IMG/VR virus record: IMGVR_UViG_3300043772_004025
Span: 1 to 46,310 of that record
Strand: one strand, 5' to 3'
DNA length: 46,310 nt
Source: a virus
Positions 1 to 45,458 of this stretch are shown one piece after another. A model generated the notes under the pieces. The model searched no databases. It was not told where the DNA came from and saw nothing but the letters and a program-made list of their open reading frames with translations. The number at the start of each line of letters is the position of its first letter. Position 1 is the stretch's first letter. The position numbers were made by a program, and so were the translations under genes.

Positions 1-238
1 CATTTTTAAAATTTTTAAAAGTTTCATTTAACTTATCAAAATTGTAAGATATCGGTTCAAATAAATGATATTCGGAATTTTGATTTAAAAATGGTATTGT
101 AGTATCTCTGGCACCAACATCAAATATAATTGAATTATCTTTTATAATATTTTTAATTATTAAATTTTCACCATTAGTTTCTTCGTCCGAATTATTGGTG
201 ATTAAATTATTTAAACTTATATTAGATCTTATCATCAT
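1..238 (-). CDS. FkbM-type methyltransferase, partial (C-terminus beyond window)
   Basis: The reading frame opens at the first of two adjacent ATG codons (238) and stays open to the window edge, giving 79 residues of an unfinished protein. Residues 38-43 read IFDVGA, the glycine-rich SAM-binding loop of FkbM-type O-methyltransferases, and residues 59-62 read LFEP, matching the acidic residue that follows strand 2 in that family (compare HIGAHFG and FFEP in the complete FkbM protein at 3628-4263). By family it would methylate a sugar hydroxyl in the cytoplasm. It is the most downstream gene seen of the minus-strand glycan cassette, 8 bases after the next methyltransferase. The catalytic C-terminal half is not visible, so the family call rests on the N-terminal third only. 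Confidence 0.55.
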   Translation of the reverse strand, partial: MMIRSNISLNNLITNNSDEETNGENLIIKNIIKDNSIIFDVGARDTTIPFLNQNSEYHLFEPISYNFDKLNETFKNFKN

Positions 239-246
239 TACAAATA

Positions 247-921
247 TTATAATTTTTTAGTTATAAATGCCATCATAGAATAAAAAGAAATATTTTGTAT
301 ACTACCTGTTTTTTTATCCATATCCCAAATCATTTTATTGAAAAAATTATCCATATCTTCCCTTTTATTTATAAACCATTCACTATAGGTATCACCAAAT
401 GATATACCTCCAAGAACACCTTTAACTGTTGGTTCAGAGTTATACCTCATACCTGGCCATAAAATTTTGTTTGCTGGTTCATAAGTGCACAATAAATCTT
501 CTATCACATAAATTCCACCCGGCTTTAAATTATTATAAAACAAATGGTTATAACTATTGATTATCATTTCATTTACATGTGCACCATCGTCAATAATAAT
601 ATCAAATTGGGTATCACCGTATGTTTGTTTTAAAAATTCAATGTCGTTTTGACTTCCTATGTTAATTTTTATTCTTTCTTCTTCAAATTTTCTAGAAGGG
701 TCTATATCTAATCCATAAATTTCACCATTATGAAAATATTCTTTCCATGTTTTAATTGATTTTCCAGTAAAAACACCAATTTCTAAAACTTTAACTTTTT
801 CATTTCTTAATTTTTCAAAATGGTATTGATAATTATCTAAATAACAAACACCATTAAAAGAATGATCGTGGTCTGCCTTATCTGTCCCGTGTTTTATTCC
901 AATTTCTTTTAAACTTAACAT
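247..921 (-). CDS. Class I SAM methyltransferase, MycE/TylE-like sugar O-methyltransferase
   Basis: A 224-residue protein with the arrangement of macrolide-sugar O-methyltransferases such as MycE and TylE: HGTDK at 11-15, SAM-binding LEIGVFTGKS at 46-55, YGLDID at 69-74, the metal-binding type DDGAH at 111-115 and GGIYVIEDL at 135-143. In that family the enzyme transfers a methyl group from SAM to a sugar hydroxyl, usually with Mg2+. It lacks a signal peptide or membrane segment, so it should act in the cytoplasm. It sits between an FkbM-type methyltransferase and a sugar aminotransferase, pointing to late trimming of a glycan. Its start is preceded by an A/T-rich tract containing five TTTTA repeats (plus-strand reading). 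A second copy of the family lies at 5039-5701. The acceptor is unknown. Confidence 0.75.
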   Translation of the reverse strand: MLSLKEIGIKHGTDKADHDHSFNGVCYLDNYQYHFEKLRNEKVKVLEIGVFTGKSIKTWKEYFHNGEIYGLDIDPSRKFEEERIKINIGSQNDIEFLKQTYGDTQFDIIIDDGAHVNEMIINSYNHLFYNNLKPGGIYVIEDLLCTYEPANKILWPGMRYNSEPTVKGVLGGISFGDTYSEWFINKREDMDNFFNKMIWDMDKKTGSIQNISFYSMMAFITKKL

Positions 922-930
922 TTTTTTAAT

Positions 931-955
931 TTTTATTTTATTTTATTTTATTTTA
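931..955. repeat. Pentanucleotide tandem repeat (TTTTA)x5
   Basis: Five exact copies of TTTTA (TAAAA on the coding minus strand) fill the gap between the aminotransferase stop codon and the start of the MycE-like methyltransferase. The tract lies 10-34 bases upstream of the methyltransferase ATG. Changes in copy number could alter initiation efficiency, but that is inference; such low-complexity spacers can also arise by chance in AT-rich DNA. Confidence 0.8.
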
Positions 956-2050
956 CTACCAACCACTTTTTATTATTTCTGTTATTTTGTGTGCGTCGGA
1001 TTCACTAATTTTATCATGTATTGGTATATGAATTTGATTATCATCAAAAAACCTTTGATTTGCCAATGTAAAATCCTTACCGCCAAAAATTGAGTTTTTA
1101 TCAATACCTAAATGAACCACTGAGGTTGGGATGCCTTCTGATTTTAATTTATTTATAAAATCAACTCTATTTTCCACAAACAAAGGGAATAACCAGTAAG
1201 AAGAAGTTCTATCGTTTTTATATGGTAGTAATTTTAATCCTTTAACTTTTGATAACTCTTCCTCATATTTTTTAGCAATTTTTTTGATGTAGTCAAGTTT
1301 TTTATCAATAACTTCCAAATTACCCAACCCAATTGATGCCGCAATATCGTTCATATGATATTTAAATCCAATATTAGTTATATCGTATTCTCTTTCCCCT
1401 AATATTGATGGTTTTGAATTTTCTCTATCTATATCAAACCATCTTAATCTTTTGATAAATTTAGAATCTTGTTCGTTTTTGCATGTAAGTAAACCACCAT
1501 CACCTGTGGTTAAATGTTTTATTGCTTGAAAAGAAAATGAAGTAAAATCGGATATTGTGCCAATATTTTTATTTTTATAAACAGAACCAAAAGCGTGTGC
1601 AGCGTCTTCTATGACTTTTAAATTATGTGTTTTAGCCAAGTCATTAATTTCGTCCATATCACAAGGATAGCCTGCCCAATGAACAGGTATTATAACTTTT
1701 GTTTTTTCTGTGATTTTATTTTTTATAGACTCTATCGATATGTTACCGTCTAAATTTATATCGGCAAAAACCGGTTTAGCACCACATTGTAAAATAACAT
1801 GACCTGTTGCCACAAAAGTTTGTGCCGGTAAAATAACTTCATCACCCTCTTTAACCCCTGAGGCTATTAAAGCCAGTCTCATGGTTACAGTACCACTATT
1901 TAAACTTACTGTGTTTGGAAAACTGTATTTTTCAGACAATTTTTGTTCAAATAAATCAGCCTTTTTACCGGCCGATATTACAGTACTTTGTAAAGTTTCG
2001 TTAACTATTTTTATAGATTCCTCAGATATTGTAGTAGAAAAAAAATCCAT
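956..2050 (-). CDS. DegT/DnrJ/EryC1/StrS-family sugar aminotransferase
   Basis: A 364-residue, full-length PLP-dependent nucleotide-sugar aminotransferase. The visible marks are NSGT at 51-54 (PLP phosphate pocket), EDAAHAFG at 148-155 (Asp that contacts the pyridine ring), and SFQAIKHLTTGDGG at 173-186, where Lys178 is the predicted Schiff-base lysine. Members convert a keto-deoxysugar nucleotide into an amino sugar, usually with glutamate as donor. No NDP-sugar dehydratase that would supply the keto substrate is present in the window, so the phage either borrows the host's intermediate or encodes the partner to the left. It lies 2 bases downstream of a GT2 gene in the same minus-strand operon. 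Confidence 0.88.
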   Translation of the reverse strand: MDFFSTTISEESIKIVNETLQSTVISAGKKADLFEQKLSEKYSFPNTVSLNSGTVTMRLALIASGVKEGDEVILPAQTFVATGHVILQCGAKPVFADINLDGNISIESIKNKITEKTKVIIPVHWAGYPCDMDEINDLAKTHNLKVIEDAAHAFGSVYKNKNIGTISDFTSFSFQAIKHLTTGDGGLLTCKNEQDSKFIKRLRWFDIDRENSKPSILGEREYDITNIGFKYHMNDIAASIGLGNLEVIDKKLDYIKKIAKKYEEELSKVKGLKLLPYKNDRTSSYWLFPLFVENRVDFINKLKSEGIPTSVVHLGIDKNSIFGGKDFTLANQRFFDDNQIHIPIHDKISESDAHKITEIIKSGW

Positions 2051-2052
2051 TT

Positions 2053-2847
2053 TTAAAATATCAAAAATTCTTTATTTAATTTATTATTATCATCCCTAAG
2101 TTTAGCAGTACACTCGTCTAACTCTTTCTTGAAGGAATCGTCGTTTATTTTAAAATTTTTATTAACTTGGATTATGTCAGAATTCTCTAGTTTACCGCCG
2201 TATAGTAAAGTGTTTGATTTCTGATTTAATATTCTAACCCACGTTAGTACATTTGTTGTAGACCCCAAATAATTTGATTTAGTTAATTCTAAAGATATTT
2301 GCCTATCGGTCCTGGCCCCATACTTATTACTAAGTAAATCTAAGTTTTTGGTTATATCTCTTTTAATTAAAAAACCTAACCCACACAAACCTTCTTGTAA
2401 ACCATTTATTTCAGGGTTTGTAGAATTTTTTTCTTTCATAATATTATGATAACCCGAATAATGCATGGCATTAAACTGTCTACTATAACCTTGTGACATT
2501 AACCAGTCTACATTTTTATTATTTTCTAAAAATTGTAAACATTTTTCTATGGCAAAATAATCAAAAGCATCGTCATCGGTTATAAATTTAATGTATTCAC
2601 CTGAGGCTATTTCTAAGGCCTTTTTATAGCCATGCCATTCACCTAAATCTTTTTCTTCAGACAAAATAATCTTATCTATTAAATTATTAAATTTTAAATT
2701 TTTCAAATACTCAACAGTACCGTCATTACTAAAACCGTCAGCCACTATTATTTCCGTATTAGGGATTTTATTTTTAATAAAATTTTCTAAAATGGGTTTT
2801 AAGGTTTCTAACTTATTGTATGTAGTTAATAAAAAAGAACATCTCAT
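2053..2847 (-). CDS. Glycosyltransferase family 2 (GT-A fold)
   Basis: A 264-residue single-domain GT2 protein. Residues 8-11 (TTYN) form the first strand motif, DGFSNDGT at 37-44 is the usual nucleotide-binding segment, and TDDDAFD at 90-96 carries the metal-binding DxD-type motif. These enzymes are inverting transferases that move a sugar from an NDP-sugar to a growing glycan. There are no transmembrane helices, unlike polymerising GT2 synthases, so a single-sugar transfer in the cytoplasm is more likely. Its start codon overlaps the stop of the upstream GT10-like gene by one base, which indicates translational coupling. The donor and acceptor sugars cannot be read from the sequence. Confidence 0.82.
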   Translation of the reverse strand: MRCSFLLTTYNKLETLKPILENFIKNKIPNTEIIVADGFSNDGTVEYLKNLKFNNLIDKIILSEEKDLGEWHGYKKALEIASGEYIKFITDDDAFDYFAIEKCLQFLENNKNVDWLMSQGYSRQFNAMHYSGYHNIMKEKNSTNPEINGLQEGLCGLGFLIKRDITKNLDLLSNKYGARTDRQISLELTKSNYLGSTTNVLTWVRILNQKSNTLLYGGKLENSDIIQVNKNFKINDDSFKKELDECTAKLRDDNNKLNKEFLIF

Positions 2848-3644
2848 TATTTAATATAATTTAAAAACATGTAATCTTCAGAAATAGGCCAATTTAAAAC
2901 CCTTTCTAAATTATCTTTAACCGCATCTATTTTAGATTGGTATAAATCTATTGATATTTGGTCTATATTAAAATCTTCTAACATAATAATACCATCTTTG
3001 TTAAAAAATTCACCGATATTGGGCGTACCCCAAAAAACAGGTATTGTACCTGTGGCAAAACAGTCCGTTATTTTTTCACAAAAAATATTTGGGTAATTAT
3101 CATTTTCCATTGCTATAGAAAAATGGTAATTTATTAAACCATCTTCTTTTTTGTGTATAGGCCTAAAACCAAAGCCGTAATGGTCAACAACTTTTTTGTA
3201 TTTTGAAATAATTTCTTGCCTATATGTATGTCCAGGACACATATTTTTAGAAGAAGCTATCATAGATATTAATTTAGATTTTTGATATACTTTGCGGTCG
3301 TTTACCCATGGTACCGCATTAGGTATTAAAAATTTAAACTTTGGTGATAATCTTAACAGCCTAATATCATGTGTAAAAATTAATTCAAAATTAGATTCAA
3401 CCGATTCTATATTATTTTTTACCCATTCTATAACATTTTTTATTATAGCTGAAGATTCGGCAATCCATGCGTAATTTTTTTTTGACCCATCAACTTTAGC
3501 ATCTATTATAGAATTGTCTATATAAACACTTATAGGTGCCGTAAATTCATTTTTAACCCACTCAACATGTTCAGGTACGGACCACCCAGAAGATGAATAA
3601 GCGTGTTGGAATCCTCCTCCTATTAAATTAATTTTTTGCTTCAT
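2847..3644 (-). CDS. GT10-like (alpha-1,3-fucosyltransferase-type) glycosyltransferase
   Basis: A 265-residue protein whose C-terminal half resembles the GT10 fucosyltransferase signature: HFSIAMEN at 174-181, then FCEKITDCFATGTIPVFWGT at 188-207, the equivalent of the family's EN..DY.TEK....L..G.VPVY.G segment that binds GDP-fucose. It is shorter than typical bacterial FucTs (about 350-480 residues) and the N-terminal acceptor-binding part is diverged, so exostosin-like or other GT-B proteins are alternatives. If GT10 is right, it adds fucose in alpha-1,3/4 linkage, as in Lewis X. It overlaps the upstream FkbM gene by 17 bases and belongs to the same operon as a GT11 fucosyltransferase-like gene. 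Confidence 0.62.
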   Translation of the reverse strand: MKQKINLIGGGFQHAYSSSGWSVPEHVEWVKNEFTAPISVYIDNSIIDAKVDGSKKNYAWIAESSAIIKNVIEWVKNNIESVESNFELIFTHDIRLLRLSPKFKFLIPNAVPWVNDRKVYQKSKLISMIASSKNMCPGHTYRQEIISKYKKVVDHYGFGFRPIHKKEDGLINYHFSIAMENDNYPNIFCEKITDCFATGTIPVFWGTPNIGEFFNKDGIIMLEDFNIDQISIDLYQSKIDAVKDNLERVLNWPISEDYMFLNYIK

Positions 3645-4263
3645 TGTTCTTTATGTAAAAAGCATCTCCCCATGTACCACCATCCCAAGTAGTTTCTACA
3701 CGAACAAAATTATAAACTGATAAAAAACTATCTAACTCATTTATTTTAGCACAGTTTTTATAAACTTCATCCCGATTAACCTCGGTCATAATGTAATCAA
3801 TGTTTTTTAAAAATTCAGAAGCACCTTTAAAAACTTCTAACTCATAACCCTGAACGTCAATGTTAATAAAATTATAATCTTCTTTTTCTTCAATAAAATT
3901 ATCTAACTTAGTTATTTTAACTTTTATTTTATTATTAAATCTTATGTGTGGATATTGTTGTAGATGTATGTGTGGTTCTAAAATGGAACTTGATTGTCCC
4001 TGATTGGCCGATTCAACGTTCATTTCAATTTCACCAACTGTGTTACCTAGAGCTGTGTTAACTAATATTGCGTTTTTATTTTTTCCATGTATATTTTCTT
4101 TTAACTTTTCAAAAGTGTGAGGTAATGGTTCAAAAAACATTACATTTTTAATATTTAAATTTTCATATACCGAAAATTCTTGGCCAAAATGAGCTCCAAT
4201 ATGTAAAACACCTTTAATGTTTAAGTTATATTTTTCTTTTAATTTTAATAAATCTAATAACAT
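3628..4263 (-). CDS. FkbM-family methyltransferase
   Basis: A 211-residue protein from the ATG at 4263, chosen over the ATG at 4287 because it lies 3 bases beyond the upstream gene's stop codon, the normal spacing here. HIGAHFGQE at 21-29 is the SAM-binding loop, FFEP at 43-46 contacts the SAM ribose, and NIDVQGYELEVFKGA at 134-148 is the FkbM hallmark in its usual place. The family O-methylates sugars and polyketides; in polysaccharide clusters it caps or decorates glycans. No membrane segment is visible. It is the second FkbM-type gene in the cassette, alongside two MycE-type methyltransferases, so at least four methyl transfers may be possible. Confidence 0.85.
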   Translation of the reverse strand: MLLDLLKLKEKYNLNIKGVLHIGAHFGQEFSVYENLNIKNVMFFEPLPHTFEKLKENIHGKNKNAILVNTALGNTVGEIEMNVESANQGQSSSILEPHIHLQQYPHIRFNNKIKVKITKLDNFIEEKEDYNFINIDVQGYELEVFKGASEFLKNIDYIMTEVNRDEVYKNCAKINELDSFLSVYNFVRVETTWDGGTWGDAFYIKNNEAKN

Positions 4264-4265
4264 TT

Positions 4266-5042
4266 TTAAAAATTTATATTTAAACAATTATTTTTTATAT
4301 AGTTAATCATTTTTATATCATTTGTAACTATTTTGTGATACATTAATTTTGGGTCGTCGATTATTTTTTGATATATCATAGGAAAATCCCTTTCAAAAAA
4401 ATACCTGTCTAAGGTATCTCCGTATTTATCTTTAATCAATCTTTCAAAAGAAGTTATTTTTTCTGTAAAAAATTTTGGGTTACAGTTATCGATAAAATAA
4501 TTTATAACTTGTCCATCGTTAACCCAAAAAGTGTAATAACTAGCTAAATTATTTATGTTAGGTTTACCATAAATAATTAAAGGTAAAGTTGTATTTAAAT
4601 AATTTTCCGCAGTTATACCAATATAGGGGGTGTATATAGATATTTTATTATCTACCATATTTTTTTCAATACTTTCTTTTTTGTCCCAAAAAATATTAAA
4701 AACTTCTTTTCTAAAATCATGTGAATTACTAGTCACACCTTTAGTGTGACCAAACCAATATATATCGTATTTTTTACCAGAATTTTTTAATACTCTTAAG
4801 GCTGTTTGAAAAGCCGAAACGTCACTATCAATTAGTAACTCTTTTGGTGTAATTTCGTAATTTATTTTTAATTTATTTGAATAATCATTTAACGTATCAA
4901 TCCATTCAGAACAGGAGTTATTGACACCTACATATAAGTCATAGTTTTTAAAAGATTCTAAAAACTTATCTAAAAATTCTTTACCTACGGATATTTTATC
5001 TTTAGATGGTATGTGTGATGCAAATATTATACAACCTTTCAT
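4266..5042 (-). CDS. Unknown cassette protein, possible glycan-acting enzyme
   Basis: A 258-residue soluble protein that I do not recognise with confidence. The most distinctive segment is YWFGHTKGVTS at 95-105, reminiscent of the HTKG patch found in some rhamnan-synthesis-like and capsule-cluster glycosyltransferase proteins. It also has an N-terminal strand (GCIIFASHIPS, 3-13) and YDLYVGVNNS at 34-43, which could be the start of a GT-A-type Rossmann fold. It is embedded between two methyltransferases in the glycan cassette with a 4-base start/stop overlap upstream. A role in sugar transfer is inference from context; no catalytic DxD motif is evident. Confidence 0.6.
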   Translation of the reverse strand: MKGCIIFASHIPSKDKISVGKEFLDKFLESFKNYDLYVGVNNSCSEWIDTLNDYSNKLKINYEITPKELLIDSDVSAFQTALRVLKNSGKKYDIYWFGHTKGVTSNSHDFRKEVFNIFWDKKESIEKNMVDNKISIYTPYIGITAENYLNTTLPLIIYGKPNINNLASYYTFWVNDGQVINYFIDNCNPKFFTEKITSFERLIKDKYGDTLDRYFFERDFPMIYQKIIDDPKLMYHKIVTNDIKMINYIKNNCLNINF

Positions 5043-5701
5043 TTTTTGTAAATCAACGCAATTTCAGAAGACCTTGCCATACCAACTTCAATTTTTTCTA
5101 TATTTTGGTTTAGATATAATGATTCTTCTTGTGTTATATAATCAGAAATTATTTCTCCTTTTTTTTGGAATTCGTATAATATATCTAAAGTTTTTTTATC
5201 ATTACCTACATAATGTGGTATATGACAAGTGTGTAAATCTTCGATAATGTAAATACCACCATTTTTAAGGTATTTAAAAAGTATTGATAAACTTATTTGG
5301 TGTTGTTTCATAGTATGTCCACCATCGTCGATAATAACATCAAAATTACCACCTGTTAAATTAATTAAATTAGTCAAATCTTCTTTTGATTCTTGGTTAC
5401 AGATAAAAGTTTTAATTCTATCATTATCAATATCAGTAAAATTATATAAATCAATACCGTATATTTCACTATTTGGTAGGTAATCGTACCAAGTTTTTAA
5501 AGAAGCTCCAGGTAATCTCCTACCCTCATTTTCTCCTCTTTGTTGTTCCACCAAAGAAGGCCTGTAAATACCTATTTCTAAAATTTTTAATTTTTCATTT
5601 TTTTTATTAGAAAATATTTTTTCATAAAAAGGCACGTAATTATGGTCACTTTCCATTTTATCAGTACCATACTTTTTCATTATTTTATTTAAATCACTCA
5701 T
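5039..5701 (-). CDS. Class I SAM methyltransferase, MycE/TylE-like (second copy)
   Basis: A 220-residue protein of the same family as the one at 247-921: YGTDK at 11-15, LEIG at 41-44, YGIDLY at 81-86, DDGGH at 125-129 and GGIYIIEDLHTCH at 148-160. The IEDLHT.H stretch is even closer to the macrolide-sugar methyltransferases than in the other copy. An insert after the SAM-binding loop (about residues 46-67, with RPSLVEQQRG) is not present in the other copy and may shape a different acceptor pocket. It would methylate a sugar hydroxyl using SAM and a divalent metal. It overlaps the downstream unknown gene by 4 bases, typical of translational coupling. Confidence 0.76.
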   Translation of the reverse strand: MSDLNKIMKKYGTDKMESDHNYVPFYEKIFSNKKNEKLKILEIGIYRPSLVEQQRGENEGRRLPGASLKTWYDYLPNSEIYGIDLYNFTDIDNDRIKTFICNQESKEDLTNLINLTGGNFDVIIDDGGHTMKQHQISLSILFKYLKNGGIYIIEDLHTCHIPHYVGNDKKTLDILYEFQKKGEIISDYITQEESLYLNQNIEKIEVGMARSSEIALIYKK

Positions 5702-5707
5702 ATTTTT

Positions 5708-6493
5708 TTATATTTTTATCCAATTATTAGGTATCGTATCTTCTTGATCTTGTGGTCCGCTTGGTCCAAACCATTTTTTAGGTCCGATAATAATTTTATA
5801 TGGATTTTGGTTCAGGTAAGCACCCCACCAGCTGAAAGAACTATTTGCTATTATATTTGAATCACAATTCATCATTAAAATAAAATCTTCCACTTCATCT
5901 TCAAAAGGTGAAATTATATGATTAATATTTTTAAAAGTTTCAATACACCAGTTTTTATCGTCTGAAATGAAAACAGGTGTAAATTTACCAATTTTTTCTT
6001 CCATTAAAGATAAGGCTTTTTTATAATAATCTAAACCACAAGGTGTGTGTACGTGTGGGAATTTTAAATAATCACCTCTTCTAACGTGAATTGAGACTAG
6101 TTTTTGTCCTTGAACCCAATGTAAAACCTTTTTCCATTTTTCTTCTTCTGATTTAAAACCTTTTAACAGTTTTTCTACAATATCTTTTTTATTTTCCTCA
6201 AAAAATTTTTCTGACTGAAAAAAACCTTGTAATTGTAAATTTTTTTTATAAGGAATGATTTCAAAAGAATGCCCTTTTTGTGTGAATGTGTTTTCTATTT
6301 TAGAAATTTTACTGTCTGTAAATTCTTTAAAAATAGTGTTTTTATATTTTATAGATTGGTGACCTTGGTGGGGGGTATGGCAAACGTCAAAATTAAATTC
6401 AGCTGTGTCATTATTTTTTTTAGCCAAATTATATGTAGCAACGACTTGAAATATTTGATTTCCTAAACCTCCGGCTAAATAAGTTGTAACCAT
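5708..6493 (-). CDS. GT11 alpha-1,2-fucosyltransferase-like
   Basis: A 261-residue protein with the GT11 motifs in order: GGLGNQIFQ at 8-16, the GDP-fucose-binding HVRRGDY at 136-142, FISDD at 175-179, and NSSFSWWGAYL at 217-227. This combination is diagnostic for alpha-1,2-fucosyltransferases such as Helicobacter FutC and Escherichia coli WbsJ, which add fucose to a terminal galactose. Length is slightly below the usual 280-300 residues but no motif is missing. The gene lies one base downstream of the GT25 gene, so a galactosyltransferase-like protein and a fucosyltransferase are made together. GDP-fucose would have to come from the host, as no synthesis genes are seen. Confidence 0.9.
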   Translation of the reverse strand: MVTTYLAGGLGNQIFQVVATYNLAKKNNDTAEFNFDVCHTPHQGHQSIKYKNTIFKEFTDSKISKIENTFTQKGHSFEIIPYKKNLQLQGFFQSEKFFEENKKDIVEKLLKGFKSEEEKWKKVLHWVQGQKLVSIHVRRGDYLKFPHVHTPCGLDYYKKALSLMEEKIGKFTPVFISDDKNWCIETFKNINHIISPFEDEVEDFILMMNCDSNIIANSSFSWWGAYLNQNPYKIIIGPKKWFGPSGPQDQEDTIPNNWIKI

Positions 6494-7147
6494 TTATTTT
6501 TTTAAAAAATCATAATCCATTACGGTATTTTGAATATCAGAAAAACCTGTTCTTTGCCAAGCTAGATGAGGTCTGAAACAATACCAATTACTTATTCTTT
6601 GTAAATCCGCCATGAAGAAATCGGCTGCCACTGAAGTTTTAATAACATCTTTACCGTTATCAATTACGTTTTGTATTCTACTATTCATATAATCTATAGT
6701 TTCATTAAAAACTTTAGAGTTCAAACCGTAACAATGTAGAGCGTAAGATCTATTAACCTTTATTAGGTTATTATTAATCATCGTACCCCCACCAACATGA
6801 TTACCACCAAAAAGTATTCCGTCCCAATTTTGGGGTAAATTTGTTGTGAATTCTGTAAATAGATTCTCCAAATTTTCTATAAAATCAACATCATCTTCTA
6901 ATATCAATACGTTTTTAAGTTTTAATTCTTTAGCTTTTTCAATGACTTTTGTGTGACTAATAGCTCCGGCAAGTTCACTATCATATGGGTACCCTAAATT
7001 ATAGGTTTTTTTACTACCGTCAAATGCAGAAAAACGCTCAACTTTTAGATTTAATTTAGAAAATATTTTTTCACATTCTTCCCACCTATCGGTTCTTCTA
7101 TCTAAATTTATACAATAAATTTTATCAAAATATTCGTTTAATTTCAT
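6494..7147 (-). CDS. Glycosyltransferase family 25 (LPS galactosyltransferase-type)
   Basis: A 217-residue GT25 protein: CINLDRRTDRW at 12-22 is the family's opening motif, followed by SAFDG at 40-44, AISHTKVI at 62-69 and the metal-binding LEDDVDF at 83-89. Bacterial GT25 enzymes such as LgtB and LpsA commonly add beta-1,4-linked galactose to lipooligosaccharide; the same fold also serves collagen galactosyltransferases. It has no membrane anchor. It overlaps the next gene's end by 4 bases (ATGA). Together with GT10 and GT11 genes it completes a set that, in other bacteria, builds fucosylated N-acetyllactosamine; the specificity here is inference. Confidence 0.85.
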   Translation of the reverse strand: MKLNEYFDKIYCINLDRRTDRWEECEKIFSKLNLKVERFSAFDGSKKTYNLGYPYDSELAGAISHTKVIEKAKELKLKNVLILEDDVDFIENLENLFTEFTTNLPQNWDGILFGGNHVGGGTMINNNLIKVNRSYALHCYGLNSKVFNETIDYMNSRIQNVIDNGKDVIKTSVAADFFMADLQRISNWYCFRPHLAWQRTGFSDIQNTVMDYDFLKK

Positions 7148-7917
7148 ATAAATAAATTATTAATTTTTTTTACATTATGTAATGTACTAGGTAACCCACC
7201 CCATAAAACCTTCTCAGGGTATTTCCAATTATTATAGTAGCTTACAATCCTATCAATATCATTTGTAAAATTAACTGAAGCTGAACTATTAGTTAATTTA
7301 GTTCTTATATTATTTCTAATGTAAGAACCGTGGTGCATTTGGATGTCTTTTCTTTCTAAAACAACATCCTTGTTACTCGGAGTCATCCTTCTTGTTGGGT
7401 CCACCAAAACTGGTGAAGGTGCCATTAAGACAAAGTTAGAATCGTTTTTAATTTTAAAAATTAAAGAAACATAATATGTTTCAGGTGGATCTAAAGAATA
7501 TTCCCAAGATTTATAATAGGTCTGCATTTGACAATAAGATGAATCGTAATCACCTTCTATTATAATCTTTTTAAGATTTTCAAACTCTGAACTTAAATAA
7601 TATTCATCAGAATCCATTGACATGTGATGGGTACACCCAGCTCCTTGTGATAAGGCTAACCCTATATTTCTTTTTTGAATTTCGTTAAAGTGACCACCTT
7701 TATTAACTTTAGGTGAGTATTCAAATAATTCATCTATTAAACCTTCTGATTTTAATTTTTCCAAAAGACGGATTAATTCTGGACTACAAGTGTTACCAAA
7801 ATTGGATATTGTTTGGTAAACAACACTTACATAATCAACATGTTGTCTTATTTGTTTTATCGAACCCTCTAACAGTTCTTCTCCGTCAAATAGATTGTAT
7901 GATATTCCTAATTTCAT
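7144..7917 (-). CDS. GT2-like glycosyltransferase of the cassette
   Basis: A 257-residue protein beginning MKLGISYNLFDGEE, a pattern seen in GT-A-fold transferases that handle remote GT2-like reactions. The metal-binding motif DSDEYY is at 102-107, where a DxD is expected, and a Gly-His-Phe segment (75-77) precedes it. No transmembrane helix is present. I can place it as a glycosyltransferase but not give it a linkage. Its start is separated from the upstream two-domain transferase by 76 bases containing an 8-bp hairpin, the largest internal gap in this cassette, so it may have a separate transcript level. Confidence 0.55.
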   Translation of the reverse strand: MKLGISYNLFDGEELLEGSIKQIRQHVDYVSVVYQTISNFGNTCSPELIRLLEKLKSEGLIDELFEYSPKVNKGGHFNEIQKRNIGLALSQGAGCTHHMSMDSDEYYLSSEFENLKKIIIEGDYDSSYCQMQTYYKSWEYSLDPPETYYVSLIFKIKNDSNFVLMAPSPVLVDPTRRMTPSNKDVVLERKDIQMHHGSYIRNNIRTKLTNSSASVNFTNDIDRIVSYYNNWKYPEKVLWGGLPSTLHNVKKINNLFI

Positions 7918-7930
7918 AAATTAATTTTAA

Positions 7931-7950
7931 TTAGATTTAAAAAAATCTAA
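7931..7950 (-). terminator. Perfect 8-bp hairpin with A4/T4 loop between cassette genes
   Basis: TTAGATTT and AAATCTAA pair perfectly around a four-base loop. On the minus strand it follows the two-domain transferase gene and is trailed by a T/A-rich stretch. It could be an attenuating terminator or an mRNA-processing/stability element. The stem is almost pure A/T, so its thermodynamic strength is low and the terminator call is tentative. Confidence 0.35.
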
Positions 7951-7993
7951 AGTTAAAAATAATTAATTTTTTACTATACAAACCAAAATTATT

Positions 7994-9610
7994 TTAATTA
8001 CGATAAAATTTTTTAACTTCTTTTAGTTTTTCATTTTGTTGTTCTAACAACTTTTCAAAATCTTTGGCTTTAACGTTGGTAAAATAATTATAAGTTTTTT
8101 TATTTTTAAGTATAAAAGGTATGATTCTTTTACTATAATCCTCAGATTCTCTTTTCATTTTTTCTTCACTCTTATTTCTGGTTTGACTTTCATAATGATA
8201 ACAAACCGCGTCACCAACAAATATATTATCTTTATTTCTGTTAATACATTCCACATTTAGTTGAACGTCTTCAAAACATTCACGATACTCAGTATTGAAA
8301 CCACCAATTTCATTAAATAAGTTTTTAGATATCATCATAAAAGCGGCGGTGTTACCAAAAACATCACGTTTAATTTCTTTATGATAATTATAGTACGAAC
8401 GTAAACCATAATGTGATAAATGTATATTCATTAAATGGCTTTGACCGTTCATGTTGCCTTTTGGGGAGATAAACATTACAATACCAGAATGTTGTACGGT
8501 ATTATCACCATAATGTAAACGACAACCAATCGTACCAACACTTTTTTTATTTTTAACATAAACATCCATCATTAGGTTAATAGCGTTATTAACAACTTTA
8601 ATATCGTTATTACAAAACAATAAAACCTCAGTATCTTTTTCAATATGATGTTCTACAACGTCATTATTGATAGCAGCAAAGTTATAAAAATCATACTCTA
8701 CTAATTTTATATGATGGTTATCATCAATAAATTTTAAGTTATTAATAAATGATTTAACCTCTTCTAATTCATCTGGCGTAGAACCTGTATCAGCGACAAT
8801 TATTTTTATAAGATTTTTAATGTACCCACCATTTTTATATATAGAATTGATGCATTGTTTTAACAATTCAACGTTACCTTTTGTTGGAATTATTACACTT
8901 AACTTAGGAGTTTCTTTAAGAATTTTGTGTTTTATTTCATACCTTAAAATAGGTTTGATGTTATGTGGTAATTTACCTTTATATTTTTCAACAAACTGTT
9001 CACGATTTTTTTCCCATTCATCGTTAGTCATACCAATAGATTTATGTGTAATTTTAACATCAAACATAACACCAACTTTAACACCATTTAAATGATTATT
9101 AAACGTAAAATCTACATCATAAAAGTGAAACCCTTTAAAAGCCTCGTCAAATCTTGTTTTAATTTTTTCTTTATTGGCAACAAAAAAAAGACCGTCTAAC
9201 ATAACAGTCTCTATTACTTCATCTTCAAAATTAGCTGAATATCTATTTTCCCAAGTTTTACCTTCATGGGAGTGAGAAACAATACCTATCATCTTAGTAC
9301 TATCTTGCCACCAACGACCAATTTCAGAAATGTCAGTCGTACCTGCCATACCCAAAATACCATATTCTGTTTCTTTAAAATGTTTTAAAACTTTTTTACC
9401 CCAACCTTCTTTTAAGATAATATCATCATGACAAAAAACAACTATTTTATTCTTAGTTTTATCTAAACCTTCATTATAACACTCAGTCAAAGACTTACTA
9501 CCATTATTAACAATTTCATAAATTTCATATTCTTTAACACCAATACTTTTTTTAATGTGTTCTTGAAATTGTTTATTAGGTGTACGGGTTGAGTAAACTA
9601 TACTAATCAT
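7994..9610 (-). CDS. Two-domain glycosyltransferase (GT-A-like plus GT2)
   Basis: A 538-residue fusion of two transferase modules. The first (about 1-215) has FCHDDI at 59-64 as its acidic motif and DVDFTFNNH at 165-173, typical of glycosyltransferase-like domains of capsule clusters. The second (about 235-500) is a standard GT2 domain: LSVIIPTKGN at 237-246, VADTGST at 272-278, CNNDI at 333-337 as the DxD equivalent, and GGFNTEYRECFEDV near 435-450, which carries the catalytic-base type ED. Two active sites in one chain suggest addition of two sugars in sequence. It is the most upstream gene of the glycan cassette, so it may act early. A coiled C-terminal tail rich in Lys and Glu follows. 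Confidence 0.83.
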   Translation of the reverse strand: MISIVYSTRTPNKQFQEHIKKSIGVKEYEIYEIVNNGSKSLTECYNEGLDKTKNKIVVFCHDDIILKEGWGKKVLKHFKETEYGILGMAGTTDISEIGRWWQDSTKMIGIVSHSHEGKTWENRYSANFEDEVIETVMLDGLFFVANKEKIKTRFDEAFKGFHFYDVDFTFNNHLNGVKVGVMFDVKITHKSIGMTNDEWEKNREQFVEKYKGKLPHNIKPILRYEIKHKILKETPKLSVIIPTKGNVELLKQCINSIYKNGGYIKNLIKIIVADTGSTPDELEEVKSFINNLKFIDDNHHIKLVEYDFYNFAAINNDVVEHHIEKDTEVLLFCNNDIKVVNNAINLMMDVYVKNKKSVGTIGCRLHYGDNTVQHSGIVMFISPKGNMNGQSHLMNIHLSHYGLRSYYNYHKEIKRDVFGNTAAFMMISKNLFNEIGGFNTEYRECFEDVQLNVECINRNKDNIFVGDAVCYHYESQTRNKSEEKMKRESEDYSKRIIPFILKNKKTYNYFTNVKAKDFEKLLEQQNEKLKEVKKFYRN

Positions 9611-9821: not shown

Positions 9822-10319
9822 TTAGTTATTTTTAGTTATTGATATTATGTTTACAGGTTCTTCACAAAGAATTGATAAATGACAAGCAGTTTTAATAGCA
9901 TCTTGTACTGATGACCCTAAATAAAGGGCCGCTAAAGCAAAATCCATCCCAGCTCCAATTGCCATGTAATCAGTAATTTCTTTAACATAGAATTTTTCCA
10001 CTAAAAAGGCTTTACCGTCATAAACAATAATATAATCGTTTACTAATTCTGTACTTTCAGTTTTTTCTTTTTTCCATTGATAAAAATCAAAAAGAAATTC
10101 TGTTAATGCCTCAACTGTTGCTTCTCTAGGTTTTCTTGTTTTAGTGTAGATTTGGAATAAAGCGCCTTCTTGAGCCTCACCCACATCACCAACAACGGCC
10201 CATTCATTTTGGAATAATTTGGCCATTTTATCTTTTTCTTGTGTATAACCGTTTACTAAGATACTATCGGAGCCGATAGTAATTTTATTTTTTTCTACTT
10301 TTACTGCTACTACCGACAT
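9822..10319 (-). CDS. HslV-like Ntn-hydrolase (proteasome beta-type fold) with N-terminal Ser
   Basis: From the ATG at 10319 the protein has 165 residues, close to HslV (about 175). I prefer this start to the ATG at 10352, which lies inside the dUTPase gene, because SVVAVKV then aligns with the mature HslV N-terminus TTIVSVR. Other matching points are IGSDS at 15-19 (active-site Asp), Lys31/Lys34 in KDKMAKLF (active-site Lys region), the VVGDVGEAQ turn near 42-50 and IGAGMDFALAAL near 120-131. In HslV the N-terminal Thr is the nucleophile; here Ser2 would be exposed after Met removal. It may be a phage-encoded protease or another Ntn hydrolase. No HslU-like ATPase is seen in the window. Confidence 0.7.
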   Translation of the reverse strand: MSVVAVKVEKNKITIGSDSILVNGYTQEKDKMAKLFQNEWAVVGDVGEAQEGALFQIYTKTRKPREATVEALTEFLFDFYQWKKEKTESTELVNDYIIVYDGKAFLVEKFYVKEITDYMAIGAGMDFALAALYLGSSVQDAIKTACHLSILCEEPVNIISITKNN

Positions 10320-10323
10320 AATT

Positions 10324-10968
10324 TTAATTTTTACCTGTACTACCAAACCCACCAGAACCTCTTTCAGTTTCAGAAAGTTCTTTAACAGATTCTAATTTAA
10401 TTAACTTACCAAACTCAGTGCTAACCCTTGAAGCCACAACACCTTGTGCTACTCTTTCACCAGCTTCAATTTTTTGTGGTTCATTACTTAGGTTAATCAT
10501 GATAACTTTAATTTCACCACGATAACCTGTATCTACAGTGCCTAATATTGCCATAAGACCTGTTTTAAATGAGTGACCACTTCTTGGTCTAATTTGTAAT
10601 TCGTATCCCATAGGCAACTCAAAATAAAGTCCTGTAGGTATTAACATTCTTTCAAGTGGTTGTAAAATTACTTCTTTTTCACTTTTTGGTAAACAAGCTC
10701 TTAAATCAAAACCTGAATCACCTTCTTTTGCCCAAATAGGGTCTGGATTATCGGAAGTATTTACAAATTTTATTTGTAACTTGTGTAAATCGTTTGATTC
10801 TACATTAACATATGGGGTCGGTGTTTGATTATTATCTTCTATATAATGGTTTTCTAATGATTGCATAATTTTAACTAAACTATCCAATTCAGCTGATTGT
10901 TCGTCATCAAGAACACCTGTGTTCTTCAATTGTTGTAATTCTTTAAGATATTCTTTTATATCGTTCAT
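10324..10968 (-). CDS. dut: dUTP pyrophosphatase (dUTPase)
   Basis: A 214-residue trimeric-type dUTPase that hydrolyses dUTP to dUMP and pyrophosphate, keeping uracil out of DNA and feeding dTMP synthesis. All five motifs are present: DSGFDLRA (84-91), RPRSGHS (128-134), GTVDTGYRGEIKV (143-155) with the catalytic Asp, GERVAQ (170-175), and RGSGGFGSTG (203-212). Motif II reads RPRSGHS instead of the usual RSGLA. About 62 extra residues at the N-terminus form a Leu/Glu/Lys-rich probable helix that is not part of the catalytic core and could mediate partner binding. It lies 1 base from the exonuclease gene and 4 bases from the HslV-like gene. Confidence 0.95.
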   Translation of the reverse strand: MNDIKEYLKELQQLKNTGVLDDEQSAELDSLVKIMQSLENHYIEDNNQTPTPYVNVESNDLHKLQIKFVNTSDNPDPIWAKEGDSGFDLRACLPKSEKEVILQPLERMLIPTGLYFELPMGYELQIRPRSGHSFKTGLMAILGTVDTGYRGEIKVIMINLSNEPQKIEAGERVAQGVVASRVSTEFGKLIKLESVKELSETERGSGGFGSTGKN

Positions 10969-10969
10969 T

Positions 10970-11677
10970 TTATTTTAATTTATTAAATTTTACTATTATA
11001 TCTATAAGGGCTTTAACATCCTTTTCACAATATTCTTTAATTTCTTCATGATTGTTATTCCAAAAATTAATATTAACATTGTCACCTTTAACATTACCGT
11101 TTTTAGGTGAATCTATTTTCAACGAAGAACATATTAAATCTAAAGAACTTAATCCGTATTTACCACCAAAAGACCAAATTTCTTTAGTATCTAAAACTTT
11201 CATTTCCCAAGGTTTGGTATCATGTTTAGGAAAAATTGTCGGAATTTTTAAACCGTTGATGACGTATCTTTTAGCTAAAAAAGGTATGTCAAAGTTTTTG
11301 ATATTTTGACCACATAAATCAAAATCCATAGAATCTATTTTATTAAAAATATCTCTAACTTTTTTAAGTATATCTATTTCATCTACACCATAAAAAGATT
11401 CAAATTTTGTTTTATTATCTTTCATTACAAAGCCTAAAGACACACATACCACTTTTCCAAATTCAGGGAATAAAGCTGCTGTTTGTCTATAAACTTCTTT
11501 TTTGGTTAAATGAGATTCTGGGGTAGGTAGTTTTGATTTATCGGTAACCCTTTCTTTAAAATTATCGTAATATGATAACCATAATTTTAATTCTTCCTTT
11601 GGTAATTCGTCTAAATCTTTGTATTGACTTACCGTTTCAACATCAAAGAATAATAATTTTTCAATATTAAATTGCAT
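10970..11677 (-). CDS. 3'-5' exonuclease, PolB-proofreading/RNase H-like (DnaQ-fold)
   Basis: A 235-residue stand-alone DEDD exonuclease. FFDVET at 10-15 supplies Asp12 and Glu14, CGQNIKNFDIPFL at 122-134 supplies the second Asp region (Asp130), and EYCEKDVKAL at 215-224 gives the last Tyr/Asp motif (Asp220) of the DEDDy type. These enzymes remove nucleotides from DNA or RNA 3' ends using two metal ions. The proofreading domain of the phage DNA polymerase at 15891-18752 also has these motifs, so this protein is an additional nuclease, perhaps for repair or host DNA breakdown. It overlaps the upstream glycosyltransferase gene by 11 bases. Confidence 0.83.
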   Translation of the reverse strand: MQFNIEKLLFFDVETVSQYKDLDELPKEELKLWLSYYDNFKERVTDKSKLPTPESHLTKKEVYRQTAALFPEFGKVVCVSLGFVMKDNKTKFESFYGVDEIDILKKVRDIFNKIDSMDFDLCGQNIKNFDIPFLAKRYVINGLKIPTIFPKHDTKPWEMKVLDTKEIWSFGGKYGLSSLDLICSSLKIDSPKNGNVKGDNVNINFWNNNHEEIKEYCEKDVKALIDIIVKFNKLK

Positions 11678-12989
11678 TAACTTCTTTAATTACTTGTTTA
11701 ACTTCTTTTTCTTTACCACTTAAAATAGATTTATAAAATTCTGCTCTTGTGTTAGTTACAACATCAATATGATATTTTTTAACCACAGTATTATATAAAT
11801 TATTACCTAAGATTTCAATACATTCAGGATTTTTATGAAGAAATTTAATTCCTTTTAACCAATCTTTGTGGTTTTTATTTGGGTCAACTAAAATAGCATT
11901 CCCATTTTCGTTAAATCCTCCTCCGTATTTAATAGAATCCACCAAATCTATAGTATAAGGACCAAAATTTTGAGCTATTAAAGCTTTTTTATGAAAACCA
12001 GCTTCAATTACTTTTAACTGTGATTTAGCCTTATTAAAAATATGTTCTTTTAACGGTGCTAATGAAACTTCAAAATTATTATAATTAGAAGCGTAAGTAG
12101 TAATAGGTTTTGTCCAAACTCTACGGTAAGGTTCATTTAAATCATTATAAGAGTTGTCCTCATCTTGTGAGTATTTTAAAAGGTGTTTTTTATACTCAGG
12201 AGAAATAGTAGTGTAATTATTAGTAAATAATTCTTCATAACGACACCAAACACTTTCGTGAGGTAAAATTTTTCTAGTTTTTTGTTCTTTTGTTTCTGGG
12301 TTTGTTTCAGTAATACTACCTCTTAAGTCAAAACCACAAACTACTAATTGTGTGTCTTTACCTTCTTCTGAAGACGACCAATTATTTAAACCTTGTCTTA
12401 TTATATTTAAATCTTGTAAATGTGAAGAACCACCTAACCAACCTATACGTAATTTTTTATCACTTTTAACTTCTTTCTTTTGGAATTGTGGTTCAGAAGG
12501 ATCTATTGCATTAGGTAATATAACTACATTTTTATTAAATTTACGAATTTCGTTCGCAAAAATTTCAGTAGTAGTTGTTACATAATCAACATGTTTAAAA
12601 TTAGATTTAATAAGTTCATCTATTTTAGATTGTTTTAATAAAGGGTAGGCTGGGTGATCAACAGTAGGCATCCAATAATCGTCGATATCCATTATGGTTA
12701 TAATTCCCATACCTTTAAGTTTATCAAAAACTCTTTTAGCTTGGTCTCCGTAAATTGGTTGTAACTGACCGTTAATTATATCGTTTATTGTTCTATGAAA
12801 ATGTACGATATGAAATTGTTTTAAATAATTTTCATCATTCCAACTAATACCGTCGGTACCTGCTGTTACAATATCAATAAAAAAATCTTTAGGAAATAAT
12901 TCTTGTAATTTTAAATGTGGGTCAACTGACCTAAACTTAGAAACTCCACTTCTATCTGAAGGTATAACTAAAACTTTAATTTGGCTCAT
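11667..12989 (-). CDS. GT4/GT-B-type glycosyltransferase, phage family
   Basis: A 440-residue protein from the ATG at 12989 (MSQIKVLVIPSDRSG); an upstream ATG at 13061 is possible but would run into the terminator hairpin. The N-terminus PSDRSGVSKFRSVDPHLKL is typical of glycosyltransferase-like proteins of large phages, and the middle carries IMDIDDYW, VVILPNAID and LRIGWLGGSSHLQD, the last matching the donor-binding turn of GT-B enzymes. The C-terminal half holds AGFHKKALIAQNFGPY, resembling the E/G-rich nucleotide-sugar pocket. It sits apart from the cassette, next to DNA metabolism genes, so it could modify DNA bases as T4 glucosyltransferases do, or virion proteins. Specificity is unknown. 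Confidence 0.7.
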   Translation of the reverse strand: MSQIKVLVIPSDRSGVSKFRSVDPHLKLQELFPKDFFIDIVTAGTDGISWNDENYLKQFHIVHFHRTINDIINGQLQPIYGDQAKRVFDKLKGMGIITIMDIDDYWMPTVDHPAYPLLKQSKIDELIKSNFKHVDYVTTTTEIFANEIRKFNKNVVILPNAIDPSEPQFQKKEVKSDKKLRIGWLGGSSHLQDLNIIRQGLNNWSSSEEGKDTQLVVCGFDLRGSITETNPETKEQKTRKILPHESVWCRYEELFTNNYTTISPEYKKHLLKYSQDEDNSYNDLNEPYRRVWTKPITTYASNYNNFEVSLAPLKEHIFNKAKSQLKVIEAGFHKKALIAQNFGPYTIDLVDSIKYGGGFNENGNAILVDPNKNHKDWLKGIKFLHKNPECIEILGNNLYNTVVKKYHIDVVTNTRAEFYKSILSGKEKEVKQVIKEVNAI

Positions 12990-13051
12990 GTTTATATATT
13001 TGTAACCAATATAATTATTTATTTCAATAAACTCAACCATAATAAAATAAA

Positions 13052-13075
13052 AAAGACCCACATAAGTAGGTCTTT
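13052..13075 (-). terminator. Rho-independent terminator
   Basis: AAAGACC and GGTCTTT form a 7-bp stem with a 10-base loop. Read on the minus strand the right arm is followed by TTTTTTATTTTATT, a proper U-tract, so it ends transcripts coming from the gene block upstream (13102 and above). The plus-strand side is also T-rich, so it may work in both directions. It separates the putative structural block from the glycosyltransferase/dUTPase block. Confidence 0.75.
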
Positions 13076-13802: not shown

Positions 13803-14189
13803 TTAAAACTTTGCTTGTTTATATATTGTTATCATACTTTTATCCCCATTTGGGTTATATTTTGGTACGTTTGAAATTCTATCTGAAATCGGTGTTCTAA
13901 ATGGTACCTCACCTACTTCGTCCCAATCTCTTATTTTATCAAGTAAAAAGGTTTTCCACCCTGGTTGTTCAGTATCAGTAGCTCCTGCATATTGATATGC
14001 TCTAAGTATTGGATTTCCAGCTTTTGAAAGTCCTAAAACATAAGGTTCCACAAATCTTTCACCAGGGGTTTCAGTTTCATCTCCCTCATAATAAATTCTT
14101 ATTCTATCATGATTTGTGATTGCTCTTTCAACCTCTGTCCTACTTGCAAACTCTAAAATAAGTTCATTTAGGATAGAGTAAAGTTTCAT
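13803..14189 (-). CDS. WYL-like domain protein without DNA-binding domain
   Basis: A 128-residue protein from the ATG at 14189, one base after the upstream stop codon; an alternative ATG at 14225 would overlap the neighbour by 35 bases. After an N-terminal helix (MKLYSILNELILEFASR) it has the WYL pattern: a strand with RIRIYYEGD, then FVEPYVLGLSKAGNPILRAY and WKTFLLDKIRDW, which mirror the VEPY.L and FrLDRI elements of WYL domains. WYL domains bind small ligands or nucleic acids in bacterial regulators such as CRISPR-associated and PIF1-linked proteins. No helix-turn-helix is fused here. Its neighbours are uncharacterised genes of presumed structural type. Confidence 0.55.
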   Translation of the reverse strand: MKLYSILNELILEFASRTEVERAITNHDRIRIYYEGDETETPGERFVEPYVLGLSKAGNPILRAYQYAGATDTEQPGWKTFLLDKIRDWDEVGEVPFRTPISDRISNVPKYNPNGDKSMITIYKQAKF

Positions 14190-14190
14190 A

Positions 14191-14538
14191 CTACCAATAT
14201 TGTTCAGGGAAATTAAAGTTATCATAACCCATACCTGGCTTATATTTGTTACCAGATGAGTAAAGTAATTTGTTTTTTTCTAATTGGTCCACTCTTGTAC
14301 CAACTTGATTGCTATTTTCACCACGACCAAAATCATCACCATCACTTGTTGCTCTAGGGTGACTTGCTCCGTATTTATCCGAATCATTATCTTTATAGTC
14401 GTTAAGTACGGTTAGTTTTAATCTTTCGGCATCTGCAGTTGCTTTTAAACTAGGTAGTTGGTTTAGTACCCCACCAGGGCCCATATCCATAACACTTCCT
14501 GGGTTTGTTAGGATTGGAGAGATTGTTTGTGCTGGCAT
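14191..14538 (-). CDS. Hypothetical protein (115 aa)
   Basis: A 115-residue hydrophilic protein with no recognised domain. The N-terminus (PAQTISPILTNPGSVMDMG) is Pro/Gly/Thr-rich and the remainder carries many Asp, Asn and Gly, suggesting an extended or disordered protein. It overlaps the upstream 185-residue gene by 31 bases and ends one base before the WYL-like gene, so it is clearly part of the same transcription unit. A virion or scaffold role is possible from context only. Confidence 0.5.
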   Translation of the reverse strand: MPAQTISPILTNPGSVMDMGPGGVLNQLPSLKATADAERLKLTVLNDYKDNDSDKYGASHPRATSDGDDFGRGENSNQVGTRVDQLEKNKLLYSSGNKYKPGMGYDNFNFPEQYW

Positions 14539-35692: not shown

Positions 35693-36739
35693 ATGGCATT
35701 ACCTAAAAAAATAAAAAAAGATATAAATTTACTAACACCTAAACCAGGTATAAATCCTTATTTAGGTGGTGGTGAACAATTTATTGAACAAAATCCGGCA
35801 AATTTACCACGTGGTGTTGATTTTGCTGATTTGGATAATGGTTTTGTTGATTGGGTAGGTAAAGATTTAAACGTAGTGGTTGAGGGTGAGTTGGTTCCAG
35901 TTTCATTTTTAACAGCTCAAAGATGGTCTGAATTTACAAGAACTTGGCAAAATTCTGATAAATATAAAAACATTAAAATACCGTTTATATCTGTTGTTAG
36001 AAACCCAGATGTACAAAAAGGTACAAACCCTGAAGATTTTAATATTCCATTAAAAGATTATCGTATACCTTATATGACTGTTCCTACTTGGGATGGTAGT
36101 AAAAAAGGTGCTGATGTTTATTTAATCCCACAACCTGTAAAGGTTGATGTTACGTATACTTTAAGATTTTTCACTTATAGAATGAGTGAATTAAATGTTT
36201 TAAATCAAAAAGTTTTATCGACATTTGCTGCAGCACAATCTTATGTTAATATTAAAGGGCACTATTTCCCAATAATGTTAGAAAGTATTGGTGACGAATC
36301 TACTGTTGATGATTTAGACGGTAAAAGATATTATGTCCAAACTTATGAGTTAAGAATGATGGCTTATATTTTAGATGAGGAAAAATTTGAAATTAGACCT
36401 GGTTTAGAAAGAGCTATTCTTTCTTATGAAGTTGAGTCGAAAAGACCTAAAGTTGTAACTAAGTTTATTAAAGATGAAAGTCAAAACGATAAAACAATAA
36501 ATTTAATTATACAATTTTTAGTTGGTTCACCCACAACTGTAACTTTTGTTGCCGATTCTTTAGCCAATTTTGTTTCAATTGATATGTCTAATGTTTCAAA
36601 TATTACTATTTATGTTAATAACACACCAGTAACATTACCTTTCTTTTTAAATTTAGATGATGTTGTCGGTATTAGTATTGTTAGAAATAACTCAGCAGAA
36701 ATGTCTGAGATAATATTAAGAGGAACTGTACCATTATGA
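35693..36739 (+). CDS. T4 gp15-like tail-terminator/sheath-stabiliser (tentative)
   Basis: A 348-residue protein. The middle is beta-rich: VDVTYTLRFFTYRMSELNVL (151-170) then a helix NQKVLSTFAAAQ, GHYFPIML (189-196), DDLDGKRYYVQTYELRM (206-222) and AYILDEEKFEIRPGL. This order, including the helix between strands and the later acidic-Asp/Arg segment, resembles T4-like gp15 tail-terminator proteins, which cap tube and sheath and bind the neck. It is longer than T4 gp15 (272 residues), with a C-terminal beta extension of about 80 residues. It overlaps the following fibre gene by 4 bases. Position between the gp14-like and sheath genes supports the call. Confidence 0.45.
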   Translation: MALPKKIKKDINLLTPKPGINPYLGGGEQFIEQNPANLPRGVDFADLDNGFVDWVGKDLNVVVEGELVPVSFLTAQRWSEFTRTWQNSDKYKNIKIPFISVVRNPDVQKGTNPEDFNIPLKDYRIPYMTVPTWDGSKKGADVYLIPQPVKVDVTYTLRFFTYRMSELNVLNQKVLSTFAAAQSYVNIKGHYFPIMLESIGDESTVDDLDGKRYYVQTYELRMMAYILDEEKFEIRPGLERAILSYEVESKRPKVVTKFIKDESQNDKTINLIIQFLVGSPTTVTFVADSLANFVSIDMSNVSNITIYVNNTPVTLPFFLNLDDVVGISIVRNNSAEMSEIILRGTVPL

Positions 36740-45404: not shown

Positions 45405-45458
45405 TTGTTTTTAATAACTATTTATATATGTAGGAATAACTTATATAAATATTTTACC

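Follow-up and report, generated by a model that had tools for sequence, protein, structure and literature searches.

What do the sugar genes in which large environmental phages are rich do, and on which molecule do their products act? That standing question is raised by the first 9,610 bases of a viral contig from IMG/VR (46,310 bases; ‘the window’ below means this whole stretch), which are filled by 12 minus-strand open reading frames (ORFs) with intergenic gaps of −22 to +76 bases. An earlier note on this DNA had described these twelve tightly packed genes as a phage-encoded glycan cassette, and both the family matches and the surrounding phage genes support that description. The rest of the contig encodes a DNA polymerase, a helicase, head-tail and structural proteins and a tail sheath, and the window is part of a large uncultured tailed (jumbo) phage lineage; since genes are truncated at both ends, the contig is probably a fragment. 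Comparison with related loci showed that the slot occupied by the cassette is conserved and its content variable, so that the cassette represents a hypervariable glycan island whose genome position is fixed.

A variable island in a conserved slot

The neighbouring exonuclease served as an anchor to retrieve 80 loci from IMG/VR. Gene order in the lineage was a GT4-like glycosyltransferase (GT, glycosyltransferase family), the exonuclease, a dUTPase, sometimes a gene labelled Ntn, the slot and then PhoH, after which came a HAD/NT5C-like gene, a small gene and two further glycosyltransferases. The slot was empty in five contigs (L096, L097, L098, L101 and L108), where PhoH directly followed the dUTPase, and the GT4-like gene was retained even in phages with an empty slot. 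Complete filled slots contained 4 to 20 genes with overlapping ends, almost all of them sharing a strand. Their content was diverse: 375 slot genes grouped into 165 BLAST families, 117/165 of which occurred in one phage only, with GT10 present in 26/48 records, GT11 in 24/48 and strong GMD matches in 12/48. The GC content of the slot lay below that of the flank in 31/31 filled slots, which is compatible with acquisition, though unspecific.

Sugar genes were also seen elsewhere. In phages with an empty slot a second cluster (loci L187, L189 and L190), on the opposite side of the polymerase region, adjoined large, probably structural genes and contained a GT10 of 327–332 amino acids (aa) among others; in G047 an additional cluster included two GT11-like genes (L188:11458-19420).

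One gene of the slot was constant. The two-domain glycosyltransferase at 7994..9610 opened all of the filled slots analysed (31/31) and was missing there in 3/3 empty ones analysed. Across the 31 copies, residues 1–215 had a median pairwise identity of 0.51 (dUTPase, 0.43), and residues 235–500 one of 0.14. The C-domain occurred in discrete types, independent of the N-domain: N/C identities were 0.54/0.14 between the window and G027, and 0.45/0.48 between the window and G033. As these types do not track the N-domain, the left junction of the exchangeable segment most likely lies within the two-domain gene itself (7994..9610).

Evidence for exchange came from two relatives, G002 (polymerase 95% identical) and G003 (70%). 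In the polymerase tree the window joined G002 (support 92) and a window+G003 clade was rejected (p 6e-29), whereas in the GT10 tree the window joined G003 (81% identical, support 100/99) and a window+G002 grouping was rejected (p 2.5e-4). This significant conflict indicates that cassettes have been exchanged between phages. The GT10 of the window is replaced by a non-orthologous copy in its nearest relative, and the number of cassette genes at least 60% identical to those of the window was 4/12 in G002 and 8/12 in G003. GMD and PhoH are highly similar even in distant phages, but as slow-evolving proteins they were not taken as proof of transfer. For most shared genes the ratio of non-synonymous to synonymous substitution (dN/dS) was approximately 0.08–0.15 (window/G002: GT2x2, 7144, GT25 and GT11; window/G003: DegT, GT10, FkbM and 4266), and values near 0.1 indicate that the shared cassette genes are functional and under purifying selection.

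The cassette of the window is incomplete and extends past the contig end. G003 is colinear with this cassette but for one GT2 and one methyltransferase, and beyond the point where the window ends it continues with an acetyltransferase, an unknown gene, a GFS-like short-chain dehydrogenase/reductase (SDR), GMD, a clear GDP-L-fucose synthase and then PhoH. Given GMD and GDP-L-fucose synthase, this sister phage encodes GDP-fucose synthesis, and the window's own phage presumably does so too.

Because the island has a set location, an invariant opening gene and a mapped recombination junction, and shows exchange and purifying selection, it makes the question of function and target testable. Related viruses swap versions of it, as bacteria do with their surface-sugar genes. 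In the partial paper library searched, neither the dedicated glycan slot nor its constant first enzyme, the internal junction or the exchange had been described before.

The acceptor and the sugars

We favour, with reasonable though far from complete confidence, the view that this is a serotype-like island whose products attach phage-specific glycans to virion proteins, the acceptor being inferred. During infection, soluble enzymes in the host cytoplasm would assemble a short, branched glycan. Its first sugars would be placed on a surface protein of the virion by the conserved N-domain of the 7994–9610 protein and the flanking GT4-like enzyme, after which the 7144–7917 product, GT25, GT11, GT10 and the GT2 enzymes would extend and cap the glycan. 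DegT, acetyltransferase, GMD and GFS-type enzymes could provide GDP-6-deoxy and amino-dideoxy sugars, which the FkbM- and MycE-type enzymes would O-methylate. Each phage type would thereby have its own glycan, altered by recombinational swapping of the outer genes, and the resulting coat might shield virions from recognition or tune attachment.

The membrane protein content of the slots bears on this directly. The earlier note had seen neither Wzx/Wzy nor any other membrane protein in the cassette, and this extended to the slots of 34 phages: 0/377 slot genes were multi-pass, 12/377 had one weak hydrophobic stretch, and none of the 377 was a capsule or O-antigen export gene (Wzx/Wzy, ABC transporter, polyprenyl-phosphate glycosyltransferase). 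The lack of multi-pass proteins in any slot speaks against export of a surface polysaccharide. The GMD, GFS, GFS-like and acetyltransferase genes of G003, which complement the cassette, were also counted for decoration of virion proteins. A fuller version of this view is more tentative and falls just short of an even chance: that in almost all members the constant initiating domain attaches a core sugar to a virion protein, that the exchangeable island joined inside that gene writes a phage-specific, rare, methylated amino-deoxy glycan, and that cassettes circulate between diverged phages, selected for antigenic or receptor diversity.

Several points weigh against decoration of the virion. No acceptor was identified here, virion proteins being the favoured candidate; gene labels in relatives derive from BLAST homology with E values up to 1e-5; and the window contig and most of its relatives are fragments with several slots cut, such that absences may partly reflect assembly. 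In a study on pelagimyophages, moreover, the glycosyltransferases of a comparable island are interpreted by the authors as enzymes that alter the O-chain of the host (PMC7029224).

Extended to the present island, that interpretation would have the enzymes modify a host surface polysaccharide (lipopolysaccharide (LPS) core or O-chain) or the protein O-glycans of Bacteroidota, blocking superinfection by competitors. The predicted hosts of moraphages, a group of jumbo phages considered further below, are indeed Bacteroidota, which have O-glycosylation loci. Nevertheless this alternative is unlikely, as flippases, polymerases, polyprenyl-phosphate transferases and all other multi-pass proteins are missing from the 377 slot genes, and a pathway of 10–20 genes operating in dying cells would be of little gain to a lytic jumbo phage.

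Glycosylation of modified bases in the phage's own DNA, as protection against restriction, is improbable. The slot adjoins dUTPase, exonuclease and DNA polymerase genes, and phage glycosyltransferases that act on DNA are well known, but 10–20 variable enzymes, with methyltransferases and amino-sugar synthesis among them, go beyond DNA modification as generally known. Furthermore, no T4-type dCMP hydroxymethylase was seen in four large relatives (G025, G027, G028 and G056), the only PF00303 proteins found in which are thymidylate synthases that keep the characteristic Asn (PFNIA). True ThyA in these phages speaks against hydroxymethylcytosine DNA, though not against other modified bases: a dUMP hydroxymethylase would also keep that Asn, so hydroxymethyluracil is compatible with PFNIA.

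As to the sugars, the earlier note had proposed that GT25, GT10 and GT11 together make a Lewis X/Y-like fucosylated N-acetyllactosamine. Its family assignments held: profile hidden Markov models of all three families matched above their Pfam cut-offs, DegT and both FkbM-type methyltransferases had Pfam matches (the truncated FkbM gene by way of its G003 orthologue at 16502-17209, which matches PF05050 at 2.8e-13), and both MycE-type methyltransferases matched PDB 3ssm. Some link to fucose also stood: GT10 and GT11 occurred together in excess of what independence would give (Fisher p=0.0012, kinship ignored and so supportive at most), several of the nearest relatives carried all three families, and G003 encodes GDP-fucose synthesis. 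The Lewis X/Y arrangement, by contrast, was not supported, because linkage and acceptor are unreadable from family membership. No GlcNAc-transferase for a lactosamine backbone was identified among the window genes, GT10 often stands beside an amino-sugar module, and distant copies replace GT10 between close relatives. In an alignment of 19 phage GT10s the window protein retained EN...EK but differed from the canonical Y-V-T-E-K, having I-F-C before EK (NIFCEK). A Lewis-type product is therefore very improbable; a fucosylated glycan remains likely.

An amino sugar is as plausible a GT10 donor as fucose, given this altered motif and the proximity of GT10 to DegT. GT10 lay no more than two genes from a DegT in 7/18 GT10-bearing phages, with GMD, a GFS-like SDR and an acetyltransferase nearby in several. 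Both G003 (GMD, GFS-like SDR, DegT and a hexapeptide acetyltransferase together) and G017 (GMD, GFS-like SDR and DegT together) have GT10 adjoining DegT. In bacteria, where homologues reach 59% identity to the DegT of the window, GFS-like genes were neighbours in 22/80 loci, GMD in 26/80 and an acetyltransferase in 13/80; these relatives are spread over many phyla and so indicate no host. From pathway considerations, a GMD/GFS-like/DegT/acetyltransferase module should yield a GDP-4-acylamino-4,6-dideoxyhexose, and the neighbours of GT10 suggest an N-acylated amino-dideoxyhexose as its donor.

That the genes are non-functional, host-derived filler to occupy the capsid would suit their variable content and absence from some relatives, but this is scarcely credible in view of the intact overlapping ORFs, dN/dS of about 0.1, the constant first gene and the complete sugar pathways.

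Genes of the cassette, its flank and the wider contig

The cassette and its left flank are listed in the table below. The PLP (pyridoxal phosphate) lysine of DegT was retained in FSFQAIKHLTTGDGG; NCBIfam gave this protein no name, its top match, PseC, lying far under the cut-off. The top PDB match of GT10 was the Helicobacter pylori FucT (5zoi/2nzw, 1.9e-9), and no PDB relative of GT11 was detectable by sequence. The Pfam match of GT25 (52.9 bits, gathering threshold 24.0) covered residues 8–105 only. Both MycE-type proteins also matched the demethylmacrocin O-methyltransferase 8ia9 (1.3e-19 and 9.3e-21). For 4266..5042, which has no Pfam classification, the top Foldseek matches in the PDB were GT-A enzymes, weak at E 1.8e-3 at best. 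The product of 7144..7917 had no match in Pfam or in a PDB profile search, and its structure model was poor (predicted local distance difference test, pLDDT, 44).

Table. Features of the glycan cassette and left flank in the window (aa, amino acids; NDP, nucleoside diphosphate; pTM, predicted template modelling score).
Feature	Position	Strand	Evidence
FkbM-type methyltransferase, truncated by contig end	2..238	(-)	62.7% over 67 aa to G003 16502-17209
MycE/TylE-type sugar O-methyltransferase	247..921	(-)	PDB 3ssm MycE 5.7e-25; phrog_21658 1.5e-30
DegT-type NDP-4-keto-sugar aminotransferase	956..2050	(-)	PF01041 5.4e-91; PDB 4zwv/4xau 4e-55
GT2 glycosyltransferase	2053..2847	(-)	PF00535 2.6e-18
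GT10 glycosyltransferase	2847..3644	(-)	PF00852 5.9e-8, 33.0 bits (cut-off 23.9)
FkbM-type methyltransferase	3628..4287	(-)	PF05050 4.7e-21
Probable GT-A-fold glycosyltransferase, no known family	4266..5042	(-)	AlphaFold2 pLDDT 71, pTM 0.78
MycE/TylE-type sugar O-methyltransferase	5039..5701	(-)	PDB 3ssm 5.6e-22
GT11 glycosyltransferase (fucosyltransferase family), HVRRGD	5708..6493	(-)	PF01531 3.2e-23; phrog_2644 1.5e-47
GT25 glycosyltransferase	6494..7147	(-)	PF01755 5.6e-14
Conserved inner-core gene, candidate glycosyltransferase (HHMSMDSDEYY)	7144..7917	(-)	61-88% in 8/8 nearest relatives
Two-domain glycosyltransferase, GT2_5+GT2	7994..9610	(-)	PF13712 2.1e-30; PF00535 5.3e-15
Left flank: conserved gene labelled Ntn, function without assignment	9822..10352	(-)	63-90% in relatives having it
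Left flank: dUTPase	10324..10968	(-)	PF00692 6.7e-22; in 34/34 slot loci
Left flank: 3'-5' exonuclease, used as anchor	10970..11677	(-)	PF10108 3.8e-12
Left flank: GT4-like glycosyltransferase	11667..13061	(-)	34/34 loci, median identity 55%; Pfam weak

Elsewhere in the contig, a WYL-domain gene (13803-14225) is conserved near the polymerase in relatives. An Asn/Ser/Thr-rich protein of 1076 aa with a PA14 domain (24676-27906; PF07691 2.8e-12), possibly a fibre, had no match in G002 or G003. A Ser/Thr-rich (25%) structural protein (36736-39156) shared only short stretches, of approximately 30–64 aa, with several different G002 and G003 proteins, a pattern as if a common module had been joined to variable parts, and a BspA-type leucine-rich-repeat protein (39163-40338; PF13306 5.5e-10) lay among the virion genes. 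The PHROG sheath match of the 931-aa tail sheath (42568-45363) was restricted to residues 607–929, its extra N-terminal residues, some 600 in number, being conserved in G002 (80%) and G003 (63%). Immediately after it stood a gene resembling an HNH homing endonuclease (45405-46310), truncated at the contig end.

The search for an isolate belonging to this lineage found none: isolate polymerases were no more than 31% identical. One relative, L069 (contig IMGVR_UViG_3300030102_006934), reaches 380 kb, the moraphage maximum being 307 kb. Relatives of the GT10, at 31–36% identity, occur in LR756501 and LR756504 (H16 and H18), published uncultured huge-phage records of 636–735 kb.

Comparison with known systems

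The moraphages resemble the present lineage in being uncultured aquatic jumbo phages with PolB, dUTPase, PhoH, a tail sheath and four core glycosyltransferase orthogroups (PMC12619734), and on these shared traits the lineage may belong to them. Moraphage genomes have variable islands whose content is unexamined, and no glycan island has been described in them; the paper asks what occupies those islands (PMC12619734).

The pelagimyophage host recognition cluster is likewise a hypervariable island with glycosyltransferases at a fixed genome place, but it is located among structural genes, flanked by VrlC and gp14, and includes tail fibres (PMC7029224), whereas the slot described here, bounded by exonuclease/dUTPase and PhoH, consists almost entirely of sugar genes, with no recognised fibre gene. 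Cyanophage LPS clusters (S-SM2, S-SSM7 and P-SSM2; S-SCSM1 and S-SCSM2R) also bring together, in a single stretch of a myovirus genome, GT10, GT11, GMD, GDP-fucose synthase and epimerases. Cyanophages were already known to have glycosyltransferase clusters that combine GT10 and GT11 with GDP-fucose synthesis (PMC9602691), one P-SSM2 cluster lies close to phoH (PMC3037559), and Sullivan (2010) left undecided whether these LPS genes have a function in cyanophages or are stuffer DNA (PMC3037559). Their GT10s are nevertheless only 35–46% identical, the phages belong to a different family, and no constant first gene or junction has been described for them.

Further parallels come from viruses of eukaryotes. 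As in the N-glycans of chlorovirus capsids, virus-encoded GMD and GDP-fucose synthase are found with soluble glycosyltransferases and a methyltransferase, and a conserved core is combined with a virus-specific periphery (PMC5408694, PMC7826918); chlorovirus glycosyltransferase genes, however, have not been described as one exchangeable island, their enzyme families are others and their hosts are algae. The fibril glycosylation gene clusters of Megavirinae comprise 6–33 genes with clade-specific content and, in several clades, a conserved position (PMC10117803). Like the phage island, they cluster genes for rare amino-dideoxy sugars, including an aminotransferase, an N-acetyltransferase, a MycE-type methyltransferase and glycosyltransferases (PMC10117803). 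The Megavirinae are eukaryotic giant viruses with an experimentally known virion acceptor, whereas the virion acceptor of the phage island is a predicted one and its sugar nucleotide route, where known, is GDP-based (GMD). That the same kinds of enzyme serve virion fibril glycans in Megavirinae (PMC10117803) and capsid glycans in chloroviruses (PMC5408694) was counted for a virion acceptor here, and if the island does build a coat on the virion, it would be a phage counterpart both of bacterial O-antigen variation and of the capsid glycans of giant viruses.

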